Positions 3,157 through 15,307 of a DNA stretch of 64,000 bases are shown in pieces; the stretch's first letter is position 1; each line of letters begins with the position of its first letter. The position numbers and the translations under genes are program-made. Source of the DNA: Bacteroidota bacterium. GTDB lineage: Bacteria; Bacteroidota; Ignavibacteria; Tepidaquicellales; Tepidaquicellaceae. The notes below the pieces were generated by a model. It saw only the letters and a list, made by a program, of their open reading frames with translations, did not search any database and had not been told where the DNA came from. The stretch is taken from assembly GCA_018266835.1 (NCBI GenBank), contig JAFDZP010000002.1, positions 1,525,302 to 1,589,301 on the forward strand. The letters are read 5' to 3'.

Positions 3157-4917
3157 TTACTTTATTAGTATCATTTGTTTTGAAGCTGTAAACTCACCGC
3201 TTGTAATTTTATAAACATAAATTCCGCTTGAAAGATTTGCTGCATTGAAATTAATATCATAGTTGCCTGCAGCCCTATTCTCATTCACAAGTGAAGCAAC
3301 TTCTTTTCCGAGTAAATCAAATACAGCAAGCTTTACAAATCCCGGTTTAGGGATTGAGAAATTTATTACCGTGGACGGATTAAAAGGATTCGGATAATTC
3401 TGCTTCAATTCAAACCCTGAAACAACAACAGGAGAATTGTTTCCTAAGGAAACAACCGATGGTCTGTTATAAACTCCGTCATGTCTTACATTGTACTGAA
3501 AAACCGGAAGTACAATTTTAGAAGCGTTGTAGTTCTTTCCTGTATTCCAAAGATATAAATTTATATTTGCAGTCGCGCCAAAACCCGTTTGTCCCGAGCC
3601 GATAATATCAAGAATTCCGTTTCTGTCGATATCGGTTAAACATGGAACATTAAATAATGTTGTTCCTGTTAATGTCAGGGGCCATCCTGTTACTGGTGTG
3701 CCGTCACTATTGTAGGCAAGGTACTGACCTAGTCCGCTTCCGGATGTAGTGTTATCGTCAATGATTAATTCCATACTGTTGTCGTTATCAATGTCTCCGA
3801 TAAGTATCTGGCTGTTGATTGCGTTCAGAGTTCCTATTGGAAATCCTGTAAGCGGGTTGCCGTTTATATCCCAGCAATAAAGTTTATCAATAGGTGTTCC
3901 GCTTAGCACCTGGTCACCAACTGCAACATCAAGTACGTTATCACCATTAATAAAACCAACTGCAGGGGGAGTGTAAACCCAGTTGTCCGTTATCTTCGGC
4001 CAGCCTGTATAAACACTTCCGTCATTTTTAAGAATGGTTACACAGCCTGTTCCGGTTTGCGACTGCGAACCGAATATAATTTCTCTTTTGCCGTCGTTGT
4101 TGACATCGGCAAGAACGGGGGAAGAGTATGAGTTTTTAAAATCACCGGGGAGAACGTATGGAAAGCCTGCGAGTAAATTCCCGTCTTTATCCCATGCATA
4201 AAGAGATGTATATGATTCTGAAACAATTTCAGGAACTCCGTCACCTGTAATATCGCCCACTGCTGAGCTGGATGCAGGAACGTGGTTAATAGGTTTTGGC
4301 CAACCGGGATAAACGGTTCCGTCTCCTTTATAAACCCAGACTTCACCTGCGCTTGATAATCTTTTGTTAACTATAATTTCCAGCTTGCCATCATTGTCTA
4401 AATCTGCAAGGACTGGTGTACGTGAAGAGTAGCCCGGTGAAATAGGGAAGCCTGTTACGGCTGTTCCATTTTTTTTATAAGCATAAATTTTTCCTTGTGA
4501 GCTTCCGAATGTAGAAACACATACAATTTCTTCCTGCCCGTCGCCATCGATATCACCAAATGCAGGCGCGCCTTGCAGCGGCTGAGTGCCAACATTAATG
4601 GGCCATCCTGTAACATTTGAACCGTCTTTGTTATAAGCATAGATTGTAGTGTTTATGTTTATAACAATTTCGAGGTCGGGGTCAGAATCCATATTGCAAA
4701 AAATAGCGCCTTCAAATGTTGTACCTGCATTCACTTTTGGAAATCCCGGAAACGTTGGAAGCGTATCCATGGGAGATGCAACATTGTAAGGAGCGGTGAT
4801 TTTATTTTTGGGGTTTGATATTCCCATTACATCGGGAATATTTACTTGTGAAAAAACATCTGAGAAGAGAGACGAACAAAATACTAATAGAAGGGGCAGC
4901 AATACTTTTTTCATCAT
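3157..4917 (-). CDS. Exported VCBS/FG-GAP repeat protein with T9SS sorting domain
   Basis: The 586-residue protein has a signal peptide (KKVLLPLLLVFCSSLF, cleavage near FSQ), a body of about seven calcium-binding-type VCBS/FG-GAP blades (FGDIDGDGQEEIV, LADLDNDGKLEIIV, VGDITGDGVPEIV, LADVNNDGKREIIF, IGDIDNDNSMELII, LTDIDRNGILDIIG), and a C-terminal T9SS type A sorting domain (NYPNPFNPSTVINFSIPKPG ... KQMILIK). The blades predict a beta-propeller displayed on or released from the cell surface after export through the type IX system. Spaced F/W-P-G/T-GWP motifs between blades recur. No enzyme domain is visible. Its ligand is unknown. Confidence 0.88.
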   Translation of the reverse strand: MMKKVLLPLLLVFCSSLFSDVFSQVNIPDVMGISNPKNKITAPYNVASPMDTLPTFPGFPKVNAGTTFEGAIFCNMDSDPDLEIVININTTIYAYNKDGSNVTGWPINVGTQPLQGAPAFGDIDGDGQEEIVCVSTFGSSQGKIYAYKKNGTAVTGFPISPGYSSRTPVLADLDNDGKLEIIVNKRLSSAGEVWVYKGDGTVYPGWPKPINHVPASSSAVGDITGDGVPEIVSESYTSLYAWDKDGNLLAGFPYVLPGDFKNSYSSPVLADVNNDGKREIIFGSQSQTGTGCVTILKNDGSVYTGWPKITDNWVYTPPAVGFINGDNVLDVAVGDQVLSGTPIDKLYCWDINGNPLTGFPIGTLNAINSQILIGDIDNDNSMELIIDDNTTSGSGLGQYLAYNSDGTPVTGWPLTLTGTTLFNVPCLTDIDRNGILDIIGSGQTGFGATANINLYLWNTGKNYNASKIVLPVFQYNVRHDGVYNRPSVVSLGNNSPVVVSGFELKQNYPNPFNPSTVINFSIPKPGFVKLAVFDLLGKEVASLVNENRAAGNYDINFNAANLSSGIYVYKITSGEFTASKQMILIK

Positions 4918-5369
4918 GATATGTTTAATTTATAAACAAAAATTCCAAATCTAAAATTAAAAGTAAATGCAGGAATAAATTGTTTTATAAAAGGAAAACC
5001 CGTTTCGTTAAACAGACCGAAACGGGTTTGCTATTGGCAGTAATTGGGAGAATATAGAAAGTGTCAGATATTTATCAGCAATGCTTTCTCTGCCGAAAAC
5101 GGCACGATTACATGTGATGTGAAATTGTGCGAGTTTTTCATAGAGGTTTTATTTTTAAATTTTTTGTTTTCTGCTTTTCCTTGAAAATGAATGTCATTTT
5201 CAAATGCAGATAAAATTAGCTCTTTTTTATGCCTTAATACAAAGAAACATTTAAGGCTGTGTGAAAGGAGATTTTTAAAAAACGCTAAATACAGCTTAAA
5301 ATTGAAGAAAATGTATTGAAATGTGTGACGATATGTATCGTTTTTTTTCGTATTTTCCGCATATAAGGA
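4918..5369. promoter_or_regulatory. Divergent intergenic region with three strong hairpins
   Basis: This 452-base region between divergent genes has no open frame of note but three inverted repeats: AAACCCGTTTCG (4996-5007) with its complement at 5018-5029; TTGAAAATGA (5181-5190) with its complement at 5194-5203, loop of 3; and GCCTTAA (5231-5237) with its complement at 5251-5257. Read leftward, the first is followed by TTTTCCTTTT, so it could be a terminator or attenuator in the 5' leader of the VCBS gene, about 80 bases before its ATG, or the 3' end of an unannotated small RNA. Promoters for both flanking genes must also lie here but no box is clear. Confidence 0.4.
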
Positions 5370-6809
5370 ATGAAAAACACGCGAATAGCAGAGATTTTAA
5401 AAACTTTTACAGAAAAAGAACTGAAGGGCTTCGGTGATTTTGTCTCGTCAAAATATTTCAATCAGAGCGATAAAATAGTAAAGCTATTTGAAATCCTTAG
5501 CAAGTATTATCCGGATTTTGAAGGCGATGAACTTGAAAAAGAGAAAGTGTTTGTAAAACTCTTCGGAAAGAAAAAATACGAAGACGAAAAAATGCGGACG
5601 CTGATTTCAAATTTAATGAAACTCTGCAAAAAATATCTCATTCAGTTAGATATAGAGTCAAATGCAAGCCGGACAAATCTCCACTTACTAAATCAGTTAA
5701 AAGACCGCGGACAGAAATCACTTTTTGATTACGAATACAATAAATTGAATTCCGCTCTTGAGCAAAACTGCTATAAAGAGAGGGAATATTTTTTTGTAAA
5801 ATACTATATGGAGCAGGAGATGTATTACAGTAACCCTACTTCAATAAACGATAATTATCTTCAGCAGCCTTTGATTGAAAAAGTTTCAAACAATTTTGAA
5901 ATCCTGTTTCTCATTGATGCACTGGAAATAAATTACAACAAGCTTACCAGAAAGAGTAAAGTAAATTACAATCCCGAATTCATTTTTTTAGATGTAATAA
6001 AATCAAAAATAGAGAACGGAGATTATTCCGAGATTCCTATTATTCCTCTGAAGTACTACATCTTTATGTGCGTTCAGAATCCCATGCAGGAAGAGTATTA
6101 TGCACAAGCTGAAAAGATTTTCTATGATAATCTTGAAAGAATTTCTCCCCATGAAAAACCATATATCAATACAGGACTGATAAATTATTGCTGGCTGAGA
6201 GTTGGTACAGGAGATGTTAAATACTTTCGCAAGGTATTTGAAATGTATAAAATCGGGCTGGAAGAGGGGATATACTTTTATGAGAATAAATACCTTCTTA
6301 ACTCTTTATTTAACGGAATAGTAAAGTGCGCATGTTATCTTAAGGAATACAAATGGCTGTTTCAGTTCATACACGAATATAAAAACAAAATTGACCCCGA
6401 GCACAGAAAAGAAATTGTGAATGTTGCGTACTCAAAATATTATTTTGAGATAAAAGATTTTGATACTGCGCTTAAACATGTTAATAAAATAAACCCTACC
6501 AATTCGCTGCTTAAATTAGAAATAAAAGTGCTTACAATAAAAATTTTATATGAACTGAATTATCTTGAAAGCGTTTACTCATCCATTGATTCTCTGAAGC
6601 ATTTTTTCCGGAACAACAAATTGCTTCATCCGGGAACAATAGAGCAGGGTTATGCATGTTCAAAAGCATTTAAAAAACTGTGTGACCTGAAAATAAAAAA
6701 AGATAAAAAAGAATTAGAGTTTTTCAGAAAATCGATAAACGAATCCAATGAGCTTGGAATGATAAATACCAGATGGATTACGGAAAAAATTGATGAAATA
6801 TTAAAATAA
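5370..6809 (+). CDS. Uncharacterised helical protein, paralogue A
   Basis: The 479-residue protein is not recognised. It is charged, rich in Lys, Glu, Tyr and Phe, lacks a signal peptide or membrane segment and looks all-helical, with repeat-like segments in the C-terminal half (YSKYYFEIKDFDTALKHVNKI resembles a TPR). The N-terminus (KTFTEKELKGFGDFVSSKYF) and the segment MRTLISNLMKLCKKYLIQLDIE are shared with the next gene, which begins one base after this stop. The pair is clearly a tandem duplication read as one message. A role in signalling or scaffolding would be a guess. Confidence 0.8.
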   Translation: MKNTRIAEILKTFTEKELKGFGDFVSSKYFNQSDKIVKLFEILSKYYPDFEGDELEKEKVFVKLFGKKKYEDEKMRTLISNLMKLCKKYLIQLDIESNASRTNLHLLNQLKDRGQKSLFDYEYNKLNSALEQNCYKEREYFFVKYYMEQEMYYSNPTSINDNYLQQPLIEKVSNNFEILFLIDALEINYNKLTRKSKVNYNPEFIFLDVIKSKIENGDYSEIPIIPLKYYIFMCVQNPMQEEYYAQAEKIFYDNLERISPHEKPYINTGLINYCWLRVGTGDVKYFRKVFEMYKIGLEEGIYFYENKYLLNSLFNGIVKCACYLKEYKWLFQFIHEYKNKIDPEHRKEIVNVAYSKYYFEIKDFDTALKHVNKINPTNSLLKLEIKVLTIKILYELNYLESVYSSIDSLKHFFRNNKLLHPGTIEQGYACSKAFKKLCDLKIKKDKKELEFFRKSINESNELGMINTRWITEKIDEILK

Positions 6810-6810
6810 T

Positions 6811-8256
6811 ATGCAGAATACAAGATTAATAGAGCTATTAAGAACATTCAAAGAAAAAGAATTTCTCGGGCTGGAAGATTTTATTTCTTCAAAATACTTC
6901 AATAAAAATACTCAGATAATAGAGTTGTTTTCCCATGTAAAAAAGTATTTTCCTTTGTTCGATTCCGAAGAGCTTAGCAAACAAAATCTTTACAATAAAA
7001 TCTTCGGTAATAAAAAATACAGCGATGAAACAATGCGGACGCTTATTTCGGGACTGATGAAGCTTACAAAAAAATATTTGATTCAGATTGAGCTTGAAAA
7101 AAGAAATCCTTATTCCAATTTGTTTCTTCTTGAACAGCTTAGAGTCCGAGACCAGGAAAATCTTTTTGAATATGAGTTCAGCAAAGCAGATAAATTCCTT
7201 GAAGAAAATTTATATAGAGAGGGAGAATATTTCTTAGCCAGGTATTTAAGTGACTTCATGAATTTCTACGGGCATCCATCAGGTTTTAAAGATTCAAACT
7301 TAGAAAGTAACCTGATATATAAAATCGGCGCTAGCCTTGAGCGATATTTTTTACTCGAAGCAATGGATGTTAATTATCAGATGCTCACAAGAAAAATAAA
7401 AATGAATTACCAGCCGAAATATATTTTCCTGGAGCATATAAAAAGCAAAATAGAATCAAATGAATACAACGATGCGCCGCTCCTGCCATTGAAATACTAT
7501 TCGTTTATGGCAATTGAGAACAGAGATAACGAGGAATATTTTGAAAAGTGTCAGGAATTATATTTTCAAAGCTTTGATAAAATTTCTGAGTTTGAACGCG
7601 GTGCTATTCATCTGGCTATGGTAAATTATTGTATGCTTAGTATTTCCGCAGGAAAAGAAAAATATTTTGAAAAATCTGTAGTGTTGTACAAATTTGCGCT
7701 TGAGCATAATCTGTATTTTCAGAATAACAAATATTTGCTTCCTTATATGTATCACAATATTGTGAAGAATGCAACGTACATAGGGGATAATAAGTGGGCT
7801 TATAACTTTATTTTTGAATACAAAAATAAAGTCCCGCCGGAAGTAAGAAAGGAAGTAGTGAATGTATCATACGCAAAATATTATTTTGAAACAGGGGACC
7901 TGGATTCAGCATTAAAACACATTAATAAAATTAATCCACAGAATGCTCAATTAAAGTTTGAAGTGCTTACATTATTTATTAAGATCTTTTATGAACTGGA
8001 TTATGTTGAAAGTGTCTATTCATCAATCGAGTCCTTAAAGAGATTTGTCAAAACCAATAATTCGCTTGCTCCATCATTTATTACCGGCGGAAAATATTTT
8101 TCAACTTACATGCGCAAATTTATGGACCTTAAAGAGAAGTTCAGGAAGAACGATCTGGATTATCTCAGAAAAGAAATCAGTTCTATACAGGATTTCGGTT
8201 TAATTAACCGGAAGTGGATTTTACAGAAAATTGACGCCGTTTTAAAGAAAAGATAA
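6811..8256 (+). CDS. Uncharacterised helical protein, paralogue B
   Basis: The 481-residue protein is homologous over its whole length to the preceding one: LRTFKEKEFLGLEDFISSKY, MRTLISGLMKLTKKYLIQIE, LPLKYYSFM and a C-terminal TPR-like helix pair (YAKYYFETGDLDSALKHINK). It starts one base after the stop of paralogue A, so translation is probably coupled. No signal peptide, membrane segment or catalytic motif is evident. The gene is followed by 115 bases without a terminator before the SPFH operon, so the two groups might be co-transcribed. Confidence 0.8.
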   Translation: MQNTRLIELLRTFKEKEFLGLEDFISSKYFNKNTQIIELFSHVKKYFPLFDSEELSKQNLYNKIFGNKKYSDETMRTLISGLMKLTKKYLIQIELEKRNPYSNLFLLEQLRVRDQENLFEYEFSKADKFLEENLYREGEYFLARYLSDFMNFYGHPSGFKDSNLESNLIYKIGASLERYFLLEAMDVNYQMLTRKIKMNYQPKYIFLEHIKSKIESNEYNDAPLLPLKYYSFMAIENRDNEEYFEKCQELYFQSFDKISEFERGAIHLAMVNYCMLSISAGKEKYFEKSVVLYKFALEHNLYFQNNKYLLPYMYHNIVKNATYIGDNKWAYNFIFEYKNKVPPEVRKEVVNVSYAKYYFETGDLDSALKHINKINPQNAQLKFEVLTLFIKIFYELDYVESVYSSIESLKRFVKTNNSLAPSFITGGKYFSTYMRKFMDLKEKFRKNDLDYLRKEISSIQDFGLINRKWILQKIDAVLKKR

Positions 8257-8371: not shown

Positions 8372-8902
8372 ATGAGCGACTTACAAACACAACTAAATAC
8401 GGTTAAAGCAAACGAATCGTGGCTTGAAAAAATCAAACGCTATATTCCAGGTTATGACGGATATGTAAATAAAGATAATGCAAGAGAGCTTGATACGATT
8501 GTAAGAAATCAGCTTGCAGCTAATCTTGAAGCAAATAAAACAAGAATAAAAAATGCTGTTTCAAGTCTTTCTAAAAACGGAAGACTTTTTGAAACAAGTG
8601 ATATAGATAAGATCGATAAAAAGAATGAGAACTGTATTGCTCAGTTTAAATCAGCAGCGCGCGGTTACAGCGGAGCATTTGACGTTGTTAAAATAAAAGA
8701 AGATAAGCTGAACAGGATTTACGAATTTGATAACGCGCTTTTAACAGATGTTGAAAACATTAACGCTTTATTTGCTGCTTTAGAAAACAATGCTGCGGCA
8801 AATCTTGACGTTTCTCCCGATGTTGCAAAAGTTTCTTCAGCTTTAGATGAGCTGCTAAGGAAATTTCAGGAAAGAGAAAATCTGCTGCACGCTTTTAATT
8901 AA
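8372..8902 (+). CDS. Small helical protein, first gene of SPFH/zinc-ribbon operon
   Basis: The 176-residue protein is not assigned to a named family. It starts with an amphipathic segment and the motif IPGYDGYVNKDNARELD, followed by helices rich in Ala, Asn, Lys and Glu (RNQLAANLEANKTRIKNAVS) that may form a coiled coil. There is no signal peptide or membrane segment, so it should be cytosolic, possibly membrane-peripheral. It lies 33 bases before the SPFH gene and is probably its partner. In Bacillus the comparable operon begins with the membrane-binding coiled-coil protein PspA; this protein is not recognisably PspA but could occupy that place. Confidence 0.75.
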   Translation: MSDLQTQLNTVKANESWLEKIKRYIPGYDGYVNKDNARELDTIVRNQLAANLEANKTRIKNAVSSLSKNGRLFETSDIDKIDKKNENCIAQFKSAARGYSGAFDVVKIKEDKLNRIYEFDNALLTDVENINALFAALENNAAANLDVSPDVAKVSSALDELLRKFQERENLLHAFN

Positions 8903-8935
8903 CATCATTCAAAAAGAAAATTTAAATTTAATTAT

Positions 8936-9943
8936 ATGGCACTTTTAGATGTAATACAATTTTTTGATGAAACAGGAAAAACCATGGTTCATCGTGAGCC
9001 GCAGGACGGTTCATCTGCAATAAGATTAGGTTCGCAGTTAATTGTTCAGGACTCACAGTCAGCTTTATTTTATCGTGACGGTAAAGTTCTCGATGAATTT
9101 ACGGCAGGAAGACATACCTTAACGACTGAAAATATTCCGCTGCTTACGAAATTAATAAGCCTTCCGTTCGGCGGAACATCGCCGTTCCAGGCACAGGTGT
9201 ACTTCCTTTCAATGAAGAAATTCATTGACTTGAAATGGGGTACAAAGTCACCTATAAATTTCAGAGACAGTGAGCTTACCTATGTTCAGCTAAGAGCATC
9301 TGGTAAATTCTCCATTAGAATTACAAATCCGAGACAATTCATGCTGGAAATAGTTTCCACACAGGGATTATTTACAACGAATGACATCGAAGATTATTTA
9401 AGAGATGCAATCGTTTCAAGACTGAACAGCGTACTTGGTAAAAATCTCAAAACGGTGTTTGAGCTCGGACAATATTTTGCGCAGATTGAATCGGGAGTGA
9501 AAGCTGAAGTTGCTGACTTCTTCAATGCTATGGGTATAGAGCTTACCGATTTAATTATCGTTGGTATTGTGCCACCGGATGAAGTACAGGAAAAAATCAA
9601 TGAGAGAAGTTCAATGGGTGCGCTTGGAAATCTTGACCAGTATATGAAATTCAAAACTGCTACAGCAATTGAAAAGGCTGCAGAGAATGAAGGCGGCGGC
9701 GGAACGGCAGGACTTGGAGTCGGACTTGGCGCTGGAATGCAGATGGCAAATATGATGGGACAAAGTATGAATCAAAACAATAATCAGAACCAGCAGAACA
9801 ACCAGCAAAATCAGCAGCAGGCAAAAATGTCTGTTGATGAAATAATGAGCGCGATAGAAAAATTAGGAAAGATGAGAGATGCAAAGCTTATAACGGATGA
9901 GGAGTTTGATACAAAGAAAAAAGAACTTTTAGCAAAAATGTAA
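8936..9943 (+). CDS. SPFH-domain (YdjI-like) protein with C-terminal SHOCT domain
   Basis: The 335-residue protein belongs to the SPFH/stomatin-like group typified by Bacillus YdjI ('virion core protein' in old annotations). It begins [17 protein letters not shown] with [20 protein letters not shown], continues with the SPFH core (residues about 35-240: [38 protein letters not shown]), then a Gly-rich and Asn/Gln-rich linker (about 250-300) and a SHOCT-type tail ([19 protein letters not shown], about 306-335). Such proteins form oligomeric scaffolds on membranes. The third gene begins 3 bases after the stop. Confidence 0.85.
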
Positions 9944-9946
9944 AAC

Positions 9947-10765
9947 ATGGCTCAACAAGTTTTAGATAAAGTTCGTTGTCCTCAATGTGGCGCGGATAAC
10001 GATCTGCCCGTTGACGAGAAATTTCTTGAGTGTGCTTACTGCGGTTCGGCTATTTACGTTGATAAACGCAAAGTCGTAACGCACTTTGTTGTAGCATGCA
10101 ATTTCAATAAGCAGGATGCAGAAGGTAACTTACGAAGATGGATGGCAGGCAATTTTCATGTAAAGGATTTAGATAAGCTGGCTCAGATATCACAGGTGAA
10201 TTTCTATTATTTCCCTATGTGGTATTTTAAATCTAAAGATACTTCATCCGAAAAAATTTATCTTCAGCCTGCAACATCTACGTCCATATCTGAAATTAAA
10301 AAAATCAATATTCCTGCAGGAAGCCTGAAGGTATTTAAAGAAAAAGAATTCAATGCTTCTGAATTCATTGTTCCCGATGTAATGTACGATGCTGCGCAAA
10401 GCTGGCTGCAGCAGTCAGGTGTGAATCTTGATACGATAGCAGAGTCTGACTTAGTCCACATTCCATTTTATCAATTCTATTATACATATAAAGGACAGCA
10501 GTACACTGCATTAGTTGAAGCATCTTCAGGTAAAGTATATGCAAATGTCTGGCCGACAAAATCAGAAGCGCCGTTCAGAGTAATGTTCGGTGTTGGTATA
10601 TTTGTTTTTCTGGTAATGAGTCTGATATCTTTCGCAATTGGTTTTATGATTGAGAAAAAAGCGGCAGTAGCACTGGTCTCGGGAGAAATGATAAAATTTC
10701 CTTTGTATATAGTTGCAGCAGTTCCGCTTATAGTAATTGCATATTTCATAGCTAAAAAAGTTTAA
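9947..10765 (+). CDS. Zinc-ribbon membrane protein, YdjG-like, copy A
   Basis: The 272-residue protein has an N-terminal zinc ribbon (CPQCGADN at about residue 11 and CAYCGSAIYVDK at about 29), a soluble middle domain and two C-terminal membrane helices (about 211-233 and 250-269). This layout is that of Bacillus YdjG, which works with the SPFH protein YdjI; the correspondence is inferred from architecture and context. Tightly linked to the SPFH gene (3 bases) and to the next zinc-ribbon gene (11 bases), with which it shares the same order of domains. Confidence 0.8.
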   Translation: MAQQVLDKVRCPQCGADNDLPVDEKFLECAYCGSAIYVDKRKVVTHFVVACNFNKQDAEGNLRRWMAGNFHVKDLDKLAQISQVNFYYFPMWYFKSKDTSSEKIYLQPATSTSISEIKKINIPAGSLKVFKEKEFNASEFIVPDVMYDAAQSWLQQSGVNLDTIAESDLVHIPFYQFYYTYKGQQYTALVEASSGKVYANVWPTKSEAPFRVMFGVGIFVFLVMSLISFAIGFMIEKKAAVALVSGEMIKFPLYIVAAVPLIVIAYFIAKKV

Positions 10766-10776
10766 TTAGAGATTTA

Positions 10777-11892
10777 ATGGATACAACGGTAACAGCTCCT
10801 GTAAAAAAAGAGAAAGTTATAAAGGGCATAACATGTCCTGCATGTAATGGCGAGCTTGATTTAAAAGAGGGCATAAAAACATTCAACTGTAAATACTGCG
10901 GAACACTTCTTGCCGTAAAAGGAGAGAGCGGCGCCGCAAAATATTATGTACCGAAGACCATAAAAAAAGAAGATGCTATAGGCAGGACTTTCAACTGGCT
11001 GGATAAAGGTATTTCAAAAGCTAAAGGCCTGAAGGCAAGCTCAAAGATTGATGAGGCGTTCTTAACTTATATTCCTTACTGGAGAGTCAGAGCCGATGTA
11101 GTCGGCTGGGTGTTCGGTCAGGAAAGAAGGACAAGAACGGTTAACAACAGAACTGAAACATATTACGTTGACGTAGAGAAAAAAATTCAGCAGTCGTTTG
11201 ATAGAACATTTCCTGCATGCGATGTTGCAGAGCTTGGAGTTAAGCAGGTAAATCTCACAGGGGATGAACTGCTTCCCGTTGATGTTGAAAGCCTTCAGCA
11301 GGACGGAATGATGTTCAATATCGTTTCCTCAGAAAAAGAAATTTATGACTATGCAAAAGATAATTTTGCCTCGATGGCAAGAGCTTCTGCAAATGTTGAC
11401 AGAGTTTCATTCGAGCATTATGATTTAGTAAGAGATGATTTGAATGTTGTTTATTATCCTTTATGGGTAGTGCGTTATGTTTTTCAGAACAGAACATACC
11501 AGGTTATTGTTGACGGTCAGGATGGAACAATCTGCTACGGTAAAGCCCCGGGTAATAATTTATTCCGAGCCGTTATGGGAATTCTTGGAGTCGGCGCAGG
11601 CATGTACCTGGCAACTTTATTTGGTGCATTTGCCATAGGAGAAAGCTCAGGGAAAGGCGCACTCGTTGCGTACATAGTAGCTCTTGTTGCAGGAATATTT
11701 TTAATTAAATGGGGATACAAAAAATTCAGATACGGCGGCGAGATAGAAGAAGGAACAGGAATAATCGAAGAGAAGGCAGTGACTCCGGTGAAGACACAGT
11801 CCAGCCAGGGATTTGATATAGCTAAAGATGTCGTAACTTCAGTTGCAATTGGAAGCGTAATGGATGCTGTGTTCAGACAGATGCGAAGATAA
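10777..11892 (+). CDS. Zinc-ribbon membrane protein, YdjG-like, copy B
   Basis: The 371-residue protein starts with a zinc ribbon (CPACNGELDLKEG and CKYCGTLL within residues 20-45), then a soluble region with KYYVPKTIKKEDAIGRTFNW and YIPYWRVRADVVGW, and two membrane helices near residues 265-287 and 294-312. A basic, flexible C-terminal tail of about 55 residues follows. It is a longer relative of the previous gene product. Its cytoplasmic zinc ribbon and membrane anchor suggest it recruits soluble partners to the membrane, alongside the SPFH scaffold. Confidence 0.8.
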   Translation: MDTTVTAPVKKEKVIKGITCPACNGELDLKEGIKTFNCKYCGTLLAVKGESGAAKYYVPKTIKKEDAIGRTFNWLDKGISKAKGLKASSKIDEAFLTYIPYWRVRADVVGWVFGQERRTRTVNNRTETYYVDVEKKIQQSFDRTFPACDVAELGVKQVNLTGDELLPVDVESLQQDGMMFNIVSSEKEIYDYAKDNFASMARASANVDRVSFEHYDLVRDDLNVVYYPLWVVRYVFQNRTYQVIVDGQDGTICYGKAPGNNLFRAVMGILGVGAGMYLATLFGAFAIGESSGKGALVAYIVALVAGIFLIKWGYKKFRYGGEIEEGTGIIEEKAVTPVKTQSSQGFDIAKDVVTSVAIGSVMDAVFRQMRR

Positions 11893-11916
11893 ATTTTAAA
11901 CTCCAAAATTTTAACA

Positions 11917-12525
11917 ATGTCAGATTTTAAATTAGTTGCCATAAAATGTAAATCATGTGATAGCGGACTTGTTGTCTCGCTTAACGATAATATAACTTAT
12001 TGTCAGAGCTGTGGAAGCGGATGGGAAATTATTGACGGTGAGCTTCATCCGATTGAAATAAATTTTGCTGCCGCAGCAATGCGCGGAGACGGCGAGCTTG
12101 TTTACAAACCATTCTGGCTGGTGACAGCTAACATAAATATTCTGGAGCGGGAATCATCCGGAGGATTTTTCTCTAATCTCTTCGGCGGCTCTAAAGAGCA
12201 AACTTCCGGCACAATAAAATTTTATATTCCCGCTTTTACATGCGAGCTTGAAAAAATGAAAAATCTTGCGCTTGCATTTACAAGCTCAAATCCCGTTGCA
12301 TCACCTCAGAAATTTAATACCAGACTTGTAGGCTTCAACTACGGTAAAGAAGATGCAAAAAAACTTGCTGAATTTTTATTGATAACAATTGAAGCAGAGA
12401 AATCCGATACAATAAAAACTTTCCGCTACGATATGAATTTTGAAAAGCTTGAGATACTGGGTATTCCATTCTACCGCCTTCCTAATAACAAAATGAAAGA
12501 TGCGTTAATGGGAATAGAAATTTAA
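11917..12525 (+). CDS. Soluble zinc-ribbon protein, last gene of the SPFH operon
   Basis: The 202-residue protein has a zinc ribbon (CKSCDSGLVVSLNDN and CQSCGSGWEI, residues about 10-38) and a body resembling the middle domain of the two preceding proteins (KPFWLVTANINIL, FYIPAFTCELEKM) but no membrane helix. It therefore looks like an anchor-less sibling in the same complex. The gene starts 24 bases after the previous stop. A weak hairpin (12565-12580) lies between it and the convergent HTH gene. Confidence 0.78.
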   Translation: MSDFKLVAIKCKSCDSGLVVSLNDNITYCQSCGSGWEIIDGELHPIEINFAAAAMRGDGELVYKPFWLVTANINILERESSGGFFSNLFGGSKEQTSGTIKFYIPAFTCELEKMKNLALAFTSSNPVASPQKFNTRLVGFNYGKEDAKKLAEFLLITIEAEKSDTIKTFRYDMNFEKLEILGIPFYRLPNNKMKDALMGIEI

Positions 12526-13369: not shown

Positions 13370-15307
13370 TTATGGATTAATTAGATGCGTATAGGGATTT
13401 GCAAAGTCATAATTAAAATTATCAAGTCTTCTCCAGAATTGAGTGCGGTTTATTTTGCATTCAATTTCATTGCTGTGGAGCTTTAAAGTTTTTTTATAAT
13501 TGTAGGGGTCGGCAATTTCCAATTCTGCTCTTATTTTAGTTTCAAAATCACCTTCAAATATAGGGAATATGTATTGCTGAGCGTTATTTTTTGAGAGCAT
13601 TATCGGAACGTAATCAAAATCAATAAAAAAATTAAACTGTCCTTCAATATATTTCCACTCTTCTTTTTCATTCAGTGCCTGAAGACGGATATTTATAAAT
13701 TCCGTTATACCAACCTTAACAACGGTATCATAGGTATTTATTATGTACATTTCAAATGCTTTAAATCGATTAGAAAGCAGAACAGCATCTTTATCATTTA
13801 CAAACAATGTTATCCCCTTTTGCTTAATTTTACTTTTATTAAAATCTATTGTTCTTTTTCCTTTAACACGGCTTGGTTCATAGTTCATCTCTTTTATGTA
13901 ATCAATATTTATTACAGATTCTTCCGGAAATAATTTTGATTTGTAAATAAGCCTGCGGGATTTATTAAAACAATAATAATAAGATGAATCGAATGCTGAT
14001 AATGTCCCGTTTTTGTTGATTATAAAACGGAACACGTTTGTAACAGTATCTTTCTTTTGAAGGTCATTCCCTATAAAAATTGAAACAACCGGAGTTTTGT
14101 AGTAAAAATTTCCCGATTCTTTAAAGAATAATATTCTTCTTTTTAAATTCCAGTTTCCGTATTCCTCCAGCGAGTAAATTTCTTTTTCCTGATAAGGAAT
14201 AAGCTCATTACCTTTAGTATCATATAATGCGTATAAAGAATTTTTTTGAAGTATAATATAATTTTTATCGTTGTTTTCAGTTTTTATAAGATCGTAGGCA
14301 TTTGTATCTATAATCCTTTCCCCCATATCATTCATTAAAACACTTTTTTTCCAACCTGTATAATTCACAAGAAAAGTATTTTCTGTTAAAGGTTGTATAT
14401 AAAAGATTTGTTTATCTATGTAAATTTTTTTATTTCCGTTTAAAATAATTGCTGATGAATCATCTTTATAATTTCTGTTTATTATAACTGCGGCAGTATC
14501 ATTCAGCAAAGTAAATGTATAATCGTTGCTGTAATTCTTAAAATCAAAATCAAAAATTTTAAGTTCTCCGGTCTTGCTTACGTAACCTTTTTTTTCGGTA
14601 CCTGCAGAATCGCCGTATAGAGTTACCCTTACTCTGCCATTGCTTACGGAAGCATATTTATATTTCTCAGGGGTAACAATAAAATTAAATTCAGAATTGA
14701 TAACAGATACTTCGTACTCAGGTCCGTTTTTAATATTACCTGAAGGGATAATTTTGTAAACAGATGCAACTCCGTTTTCAAATTCGCCTATCTCGGAAAA
14801 AACAGTATCGATTATAAATTCTCCTTTTGAATTTATAATTCCGCTGTGCTTGTAATATGTTTTAACAATTGCTGCTGAATCAGTAATGAATTTTACTGAT
14901 GAGTAATTAGGAAAAAAAATTTCTTTTCCGTCTGCGAATAAAAAACCTGCGGTGCTGTCTTTATAAATAAGCGCAGTACCGTTTCTAAAGCTTTCTGCAT
15001 AGTCATATTTAGGCTGAACAACGTATACGCCCTTTGTATTTATAAAGCCGTACTTGCCGGAAATTCTTGCTGCTGCGGGACCATCATAAAAATCATATGC
15101 GTTTGCAAATACAGGCTTGATAGCAACTTTTCCCGTTGTATCAATATATCCGACTTTGCCTTCAGAAAAAATTCTTATTAATGAGTTACCATATGCAATA
15201 TCTTCTGGCGATTGCAAAATTGATTGCGCTGAGGAAATTAAGGGAAGAGAAAAAATAAGGATAAAAATGAGGAGAAGAAATGCGAGAGAGAACTTTGATT
15301 TCTTCAT
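13370..15307 (-). CDS. Exported WG-repeat protein
   Basis: The 645-residue protein starts with a hydrophobic signal sequence (SLAFLLLIFILIFSLPLI, cleavage near SSAQ) and contains WG-type beta-repeats in the first 200 residues (EGKVGYIDTTGKVAIKPVF, SGKYGFINTKGVYVVQPKYD, HSGIINSKGEFIIDTVF), with more degenerate ones up to about residue 380. The last 150 residues form a separate beta-rich region with no recognised family. WG repeats are usually found in surface or secreted proteins of unknown ligand. There is no T9SS tail, so the protein probably stays in the periplasm. Confidence 0.82.
   Translation of the reverse strand: MKKSKFSLAFLLLIFILIFSLPLISSAQSILQSPEDIAYGNSLIRIFSEGKVGYIDTTGKVAIKPVFANAYDFYDGPAAARISGKYGFINTKGVYVVQPKYDYAESFRNGTALIYKDSTAGFLFADGKEIFFPNYSSVKFITDSAAIVKTYYKHSGIINSKGEFIIDTVFSEIGEFENGVASVYKIIPSGNIKNGPEYEVSVINSEFNFIVTPEKYKYASVSNGRVRVTLYGDSAGTEKKGYVSKTGELKIFDFDFKNYSNDYTFTLLNDTAAVIINRNYKDDSSAIILNGNKKIYIDKQIFYIQPLTENTFLVNYTGWKKSVLMNDMGERIIDTNAYDLIKTENNDKNYIILQKNSLYALYDTKGNELIPYQEKEIYSLEEYGNWNLKRRILFFKESGNFYYKTPVVSIFIGNDLQKKDTVTNVFRFIINKNGTLSAFDSSYYYCFNKSRRLIYKSKLFPEESVINIDYIKEMNYEPSRVKGKRTIDFNKSKIKQKGITLFVNDKDAVLLSNRFKAFEMYIINTYDTVVKVGITEFINIRLQALNEKEEWKYIEGQFNFFIDFDYVPIMLSKNNAQQYIFPIFEGDFETKIRAELEIADPYNYKKTLKLHSNEIECKINRTQFWRRLDNFNYDFANPYTHLINP

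Follow-up and report, generated by a model that had tools for sequence, protein, structure and literature searches.

A near-constant small helical companion of one SPFH branch, encoded in a PspA-free gene set with interchangeable zinc ribbons

INTRODUCTION

SPFH proteins occur across life, and how each of them finds its partners is mostly not understood. HflK/C, flotillin, and other SPFH scaffolds carry a membrane anchor of their own and work with partners such as NfeD and FtsH. Another arrangement is found in Bacillus subtilis, where pspA is the first gene of pspA-ydjGHI (PMC9239133). YdjI, the SPFH protein of this set, is cytoplasmic, requires YdjG/YdjH for its membrane localisation, and recruits PspA (PMC8581546). 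A survey of Psp systems assigns zinc ribbons, a YpeB-like domain, and a transmembrane segment to YdjG, describes the tail of the B. subtilis SPFH protein as zinc-ribbon-bearing, and lists Toastrack as a known Psp-associated domain (PMC11237479). According to a further study, PF13421 (Band_7_1) is the commonest partner of the SHOCT domain (PMC3581485).

Here, we describe a five-gene set in which an SPFH protein is encoded together with three zinc-ribbon proteins and a small helical protein, referred to as A. The set is a variant, without PspA, of a kind of SPFH system already known. The most interesting part of this conserved, modular system is A, which is nearly unnamed and almost unstudied; its pairing with an SPFH protein makes the SPFH partner question accessible through two small genes.

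RESULTS

Layout of the operon

The window (the whole stretch of DNA analysed, 64,000 nucleotides of contig JAFDZP010000002.1) contains five open reading frames in the order A-B-C-D-E, all on the + strand, at 8372-12525:

8372..8902, + strand: gene A, 176 aa, soluble, helical
8936..9943, + strand: gene B, 335 aa, SPFH protein without a predicted membrane helix
9947..10765, + strand: gene C, 272 aa, zinc-ribbon membrane protein
10777..11892, + strand: gene D, 371 aa, zinc-ribbon membrane protein, paralogue of C
11917..12525, + strand: gene E, 202 aa, soluble zinc-ribbon protein

The A/B, B/C, C/D, and D/E gaps measure 33, 3, 11, and 24 bases, respectively. Every gene of the tightly spaced run (gaps of 3 to 33 bases) that a sequence-only reading of this DNA had proposed was confirmed. 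An Rfam search returned no RNA family, promoters and terminators were predicted no more often than in shuffled sequences, and a PADLOC scan for defence genes gave only noise.

Directly upstream of A are two adjacent genes of ∼480 aa (5370-6809 and 6811-8256, both +), which are alike over their length, begin with a common MxNTRxxE... start, and appear to be tandem duplicates; the second matches RPN7 weakly (0.0016, under the cut-off). This pair was rejected as part of the operon, since different genes stand upstream of A in related loci (L028, L029, L033, L035, and L053). A 645-aa protein with WG repeats (PF14903, 6.2e-25) is encoded at 13370-15307 on the − strand.

The SPFH protein and the zinc-ribbon proteins

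The following features were located in genes B to E:

9014..9619, + strand: SPFH domain of B (PF13421 Band_7_1), residues 27-228
9851..9931, + strand: C-terminal SHOCT domain of B, residues 306-332
9977..10042, + strand: zinc ribbon of C (C11, C14, C29, C32, all invariant)
10595..10753, + strand: membrane helix pair of C, at about residues 217-235 and 251-269
10834..10899, + strand: zinc ribbon of D (C20, C23, C38, C41, all invariant)
11581..11706, + strand: membrane helix pair of D, at about residues 269-287 and 292-310
11947..12012, + strand: zinc ribbon of E (C11, C14, C29, C32, in the sequence of E itself)

B is assigned to PF13421 at 4.1e-56 (190.4 bits; cut-off, 24), and its 335 residues end in a SHOCT domain (PF09851, 5.5e-8, 32.8 bits against a cut-off of 27). 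No hydrophobic stretch in B exceeds 1.6, that is, no membrane helix is predicted. B resembles YdjI in combining PF13421 with an absent membrane helix, and C and D combine a ribbon with membrane helices. In architecture, the set resembles the YdjI/YdjG pair to which the sequence-only reading compared it.

Each of C, D, and E carries one CxxC...CxxC pair (11/29 in C, 20/38 in D, and 11/29 in E), and in the alignments of C and D, the four ribbon cysteines are invariant among relatives. All three ribbons score under every Pfam cut-off and fall into no named ribbon family. The twin helices expected of two zinc-ribbon proteins were found in C and D, but they are not strictly C-terminal in D, where they precede a tail of ∼60 residues; E has no predicted membrane helix. 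C and D proved paralogous by hhalign (probability, 97.5%; E value, 5e-12), whereas protein E is weakly related to C (38%, hhalign) and has no measurable relation to D. The notion of triplicated anchors was therefore not supported, as E is weakly related and helix-free; an origin of all three by one duplication was rejected for E on the hhalign result. The structure model of D is poor (pLDDT 55.6, pTM 0.44), and its fold matches are meaningless.

The absence of the other Psp components was borne out as well. PspA (PF04012) went unmatched in the source genome and throughout the 44 genomes of the order, while control genomes were positive; the operon has no gene for a TPM protein (the YdjH type), and TPM genes occur only on another contig.

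Protein A

A has no Pfam match over cut-off and no predicted membrane helix (no hydrophobic stretch over 1.6). The NCBIfam model NF047596 (LIMLP_15305, from Leptospira) matches A over its full length (2e-8, 34.3 bits) and also matched 10 of the 10 A homologues tested (4e-6 to 2e-14). The equivalog cut-off of this model is 210 bits, against 27 to 54 bits for A and its homologues; judged from these scores, A is related to the LIMLP_15305 family only distantly and is not a member. The family name carries no function, and LIMLP_15305 was found once in the literature, merely as the neighbour of a non-coding RNA. A plasmid search with A found none.

An AlphaFold2 model based on an alignment of 14 sequences predicts a four-helix bundle (pLDDT 85.5, pTM 0.80) with helices at residues 37-68, 72-97, 110-142, and 148-174. 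Two motifs were delineated:

8447..8506, + strand: motif 1 of A, residues 26-45, P-G-x-x-G-Y...R-x-x-D-x-x-x-R, unchanged or almost unchanged across 50 homologues of two phyla
8654..8731, + strand: motif 2 of A, residues 95-120, A-x-x-G-Y-x-G-x-F-D-x-x-K...L-x-x-x-Y-x-x-D

The invariant residues among the 50 homologues are P26, R38, D41, R45, G98, Y99, F103, L113, D120, and R168; G101, D104, K107, and Y117 come close to invariance. With the usual up-down helix order, both motifs would lie at the same pole of the bundle. All 14 of the 14 most conserved bundle residues then fall in one half, in which helices 1 and 3 start and helices 2 and 4 end (p 6e-5, in a test that assumes this helix order and uses halves defined after seeing the data). 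This placement of conserved residues at one pole of the modelled bundle suggests a single conserved docking site.

Foldseek returned nothing at E ≤ 0.001 for the model of A, and fold searches gave generic helical-bundle matches only. The best VIA-align match (Z 12.6, to the IncA four-helix domain) was not used, since such matches are common for helical bundles. PDB sequence searches with profiles of A, B, and D gave nothing significant.

Conservation within the order

Database records of close SPFH relatives came from Ignavibacteria/Bacteroidetes metagenome genomes and one acidobacterium. In a neighbourhood search, the B-C-D-E gene order was kept in 22 of 22 related contigs of sufficient length; within the order, the zinc-ribbon genes do travel with the SPFH gene, as had been predicted, and the gene set is conserved far beyond chance. 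A stands directly before B in one family of the order; in a second family, A is kept elsewhere in the genome rather than beside B. Across the 44 genomes of the order, A was found in 37 and B in 35: both occur in 35, neither in 7, A alone in 2 (one of these genomes is merely 64% complete), and B alone in none (Fisher p about 9e-7, ignoring kinship). The retention of A after its separation from B-C-D-E argues for a function shared with these genes, beyond mere neighbourhood.

In the second family (L141, L143, L145, and L147), the relocated A lies near a gene for a TonB-dependent receptor (PF00593 plus PF07715). An unmatched gene of 112 to 121 aa stands between the two in L141, L143, and L147, and its product is predicted to have a hydrophobic helix in L141 and in L147. 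Because A is unlinked and close to a TonB-receptor gene in this family, it might have a separate job.

A and one branch of SPFH proteins in Acidobacteriota

A was found in 30 of 149 acidobacterial genomes; a 31st match was discounted (3e-5, to part of a 550-aa frame). In 28 of the 29 acidobacterial loci read, the SPFH gene adjoins A on the same strand (one gene separates the two in L118, which is among the 28), and the remaining locus is cut by a contig end. The coordinates of A in L138 were taken from the phylum-wide search with A. Acidobacterial SPFH proteins fall into two groups by their scores against the SPFH profile: those of the near group, from 28 genomes, score over 325 bits, and those of the far group, from 39 genomes, score 190 to 275 bits. 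A occurs in 27 of the 28 near-group genomes versus 0 of the 39 far-group genomes; in three more genomes with A, the SPFH gene is split or missing at contig ends. Around the SPFH genes of 19 far-group loci and near-group genome G385, no A-like gene was found even at E 0.1.

A FastTree phylogeny of 71 SPFH domains, rooted at the midpoint, placed all A-linked proteins on one side of the root. The members on that side without an adjacent A are those of the second family of the order, those at contig ends (L030 and L034), and L149 and L150. The latter two (from G385 and G386) are long-branch SPFH proteins with no A beside them and are possible losses of A. G386 belongs to the far group by score and to the near side in the tree, the sole genome in which the two groupings differ. 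Pairwise distances of A and the SPFH protein correlate (r = 0.90 overall and 0.81 within Acidobacteriota), partly through shared history; shared species history confounds both this correlation and the presence/absence pattern. The phyla sampled are those that could be reached from the loci in hand. Across at least two bacterial phyla, A is a near-constant companion of one SPFH branch.

Zinc ribbons in cis or in trans

Of the 25 complete near-group SPFH proteins from Acidobacteriota, 23 have one to three zinc ribbons in the C-terminal tail where SHOCT would otherwise be. The remaining two tails carry SHOCT (L114) and a weak BamE-like match (L124). Separate ribbon membrane genes beside the A-SPFH pair are rare in this phylum. 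A relative of C adjoins the pair in L128, and L124 encodes a large two-ribbon protein beside it (match to D, 1e-4). L129 (4806-8846, +) combines A and the SPFH gene with close relatives of D (3e-91) and E (5e-12); most of the five-gene set thus occurs in another phylum. In L118, the gene between A and the SPFH gene (3924-5393, −) encodes a zinc ribbon, a membrane helix, and a Toastrack domain (DUF4097, 6.1e-22).

Tails vary in the far group as well, with ribbons, SHOCT, and others. Several far-group SPFH genes without A (L151, L152, L165, L166, and L168) are followed by a gene for a different two-ribbon membrane protein with a single helix, weakly related to C and D.

With ribbons placed either in the SPFH tail or in separate genes, they are accessories supplied in cis or in trans, and A marks one SPFH branch. 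A and the SPFH protein are the core, and the zinc ribbons are interchangeable. The emphasis of the sequence-only reading was not borne out: A plus SPFH is the most constant pair, and separate ribbon genes are optional outside the order.

DISCUSSION

We favour, with somewhat better than even confidence, a dedicated A-SPFH module in which B would be the membrane scaffold, C and D its tethers, E an adaptor, and A its specific partner. B would most likely assemble into a homo-oligomeric ring or cage on the inner side of the cytoplasmic membrane, where C and D, the zinc-ribbon proteins with twin helices, would keep it in place. The soluble protein E may provide a zinc-ribbon adaptor, and A a soluble partner specific to the SPFH subclade of B. 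A would dock onto the SPFH assembly through its conserved pole (R38, D41, R45, G98-K107, L113-D120, and R168), where it could be a lid, an adaptor, or an assembly factor. Acidobacterial ribbons are usually built into the SPFH tail. By analogy with YdjI, the complex would most likely organise or protect the membrane; a membrane-stress function is putative, and the wider analogy to Psp is only partly supported.

Two other readings assign A a different role. The sequence-only reading had cast A as the soluble effector in PspA's place, recruited to damaged membrane by the SPFH protein and ribbon anchors. A is soluble and helical, it comes first in the operon as pspA does in pspA-ydjGHI (PMC9239133), and PspA is absent from 44 of 44 genomes of the order. 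The ribbon-helix-Toastrack gene of L118 also points this way, since Toastrack is Psp-associated (PMC11237479); the domain is otherwise tied to Psp and Lia systems. However, PspA is lacking even in the 7 genomes of the order without A, and in Acidobacteriota, it is present in 7 of 30 genomes with A versus 34 of 119 others (Fisher p = 0.65), so that A neither excludes nor requires PspA. These independent distributions weaken the case for replacement of PspA by A. A is, moreover, modelled as a compact four-helix bundle, has no Pfam PspA match, and found no Psp fold among the matches listed in its fold searches; we regard this variant Psp system as distinctly unlikely. A quality-control or assembly platform is unlikely too. 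Here B would cage membrane proteins as HflK/C and prohibitins do, with the ribbons presenting clients and A acting as a lid or client adaptor; adaptor roles would fit a set that offers membrane helices, zinc ribbons, and a small bundle of helices. B does match the HflK model TIGR01933 weakly (4e-4, under cut-off). Against this, the operon contains no protease, ATPase, or chaperone gene, and B lacks the N-terminal membrane helix that HflK/C possess. As for the cage itself, work cited in PMC10936438 describes a distant SPFH homologue as a 24-mer that encloses a compartment on the membrane.

A regulatory complex is highly improbable; in it, the ribbons would contact either RNA polymerase or nucleic acid, a regulator would be tethered by the membrane proteins, and SPFH would serve as the platform. 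The ribbons of C, D, and E score weakly against those of RNA polymerase P, TFIIB, and PriA, but these matches are far under the cut-offs, zinc ribbons often bind proteins, and none of the five proteins has a helix-turn-helix domain. More tentatively, at somewhat under even confidence, the dedicated A-SPFH module might be extended to an unrecognised family of SPFH-specific partners founded by A. A and the SPFH protein would then form an ancient, PspA-free two-component machine shared by relatives in Bacteroidota/Ignavibacteria, by Acidobacteriota, and probably by spirochaetes. In this machine, A might cap or load the cage while ribbons, in cis or in trans, might set membrane or client specificity.

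A tracks one SPFH branch across phyla, even after gene relocation, which makes it a good candidate for binding the SPFH protein directly. Judging from this set, scaffolds of the YdjI kind may pair with a conserved protein that is not PspA, and the switching of ribbons between the scaffold tail and separate membrane proteins is a hint to their purpose.

Compared with known systems, the operon is akin to pspA-ydjGHI in that a cytoplasmic SPFH protein without a membrane helix is encoded with zinc-ribbon membrane proteins; zinc-ribbon SPFH tails are likewise common to the B. subtilis protein and the acidobacterial relatives. The operon instead lacks pspA and a TPM gene, has two paralogous twin-helix ribbon proteins plus a soluble one, and ends its SPFH protein in SHOCT; no counterpart of the 176-aa A is described for pspA-ydjGHI. 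With HflK/C, flotillin, and other SPFH scaffolds, B has the SPFH domain in common. The LIMLP_15305 family of Leptospira is similar to A over its whole length, although A scores far under its 210-bit threshold. The Band_7_1 plus SHOCT proteins show the same domain pair as B; the available portion of the paper on them concerns single proteins and describes neither a partner like A nor a zinc-ribbon operon (PMC3581485), the two elements that set the present locus apart from that domain pair.
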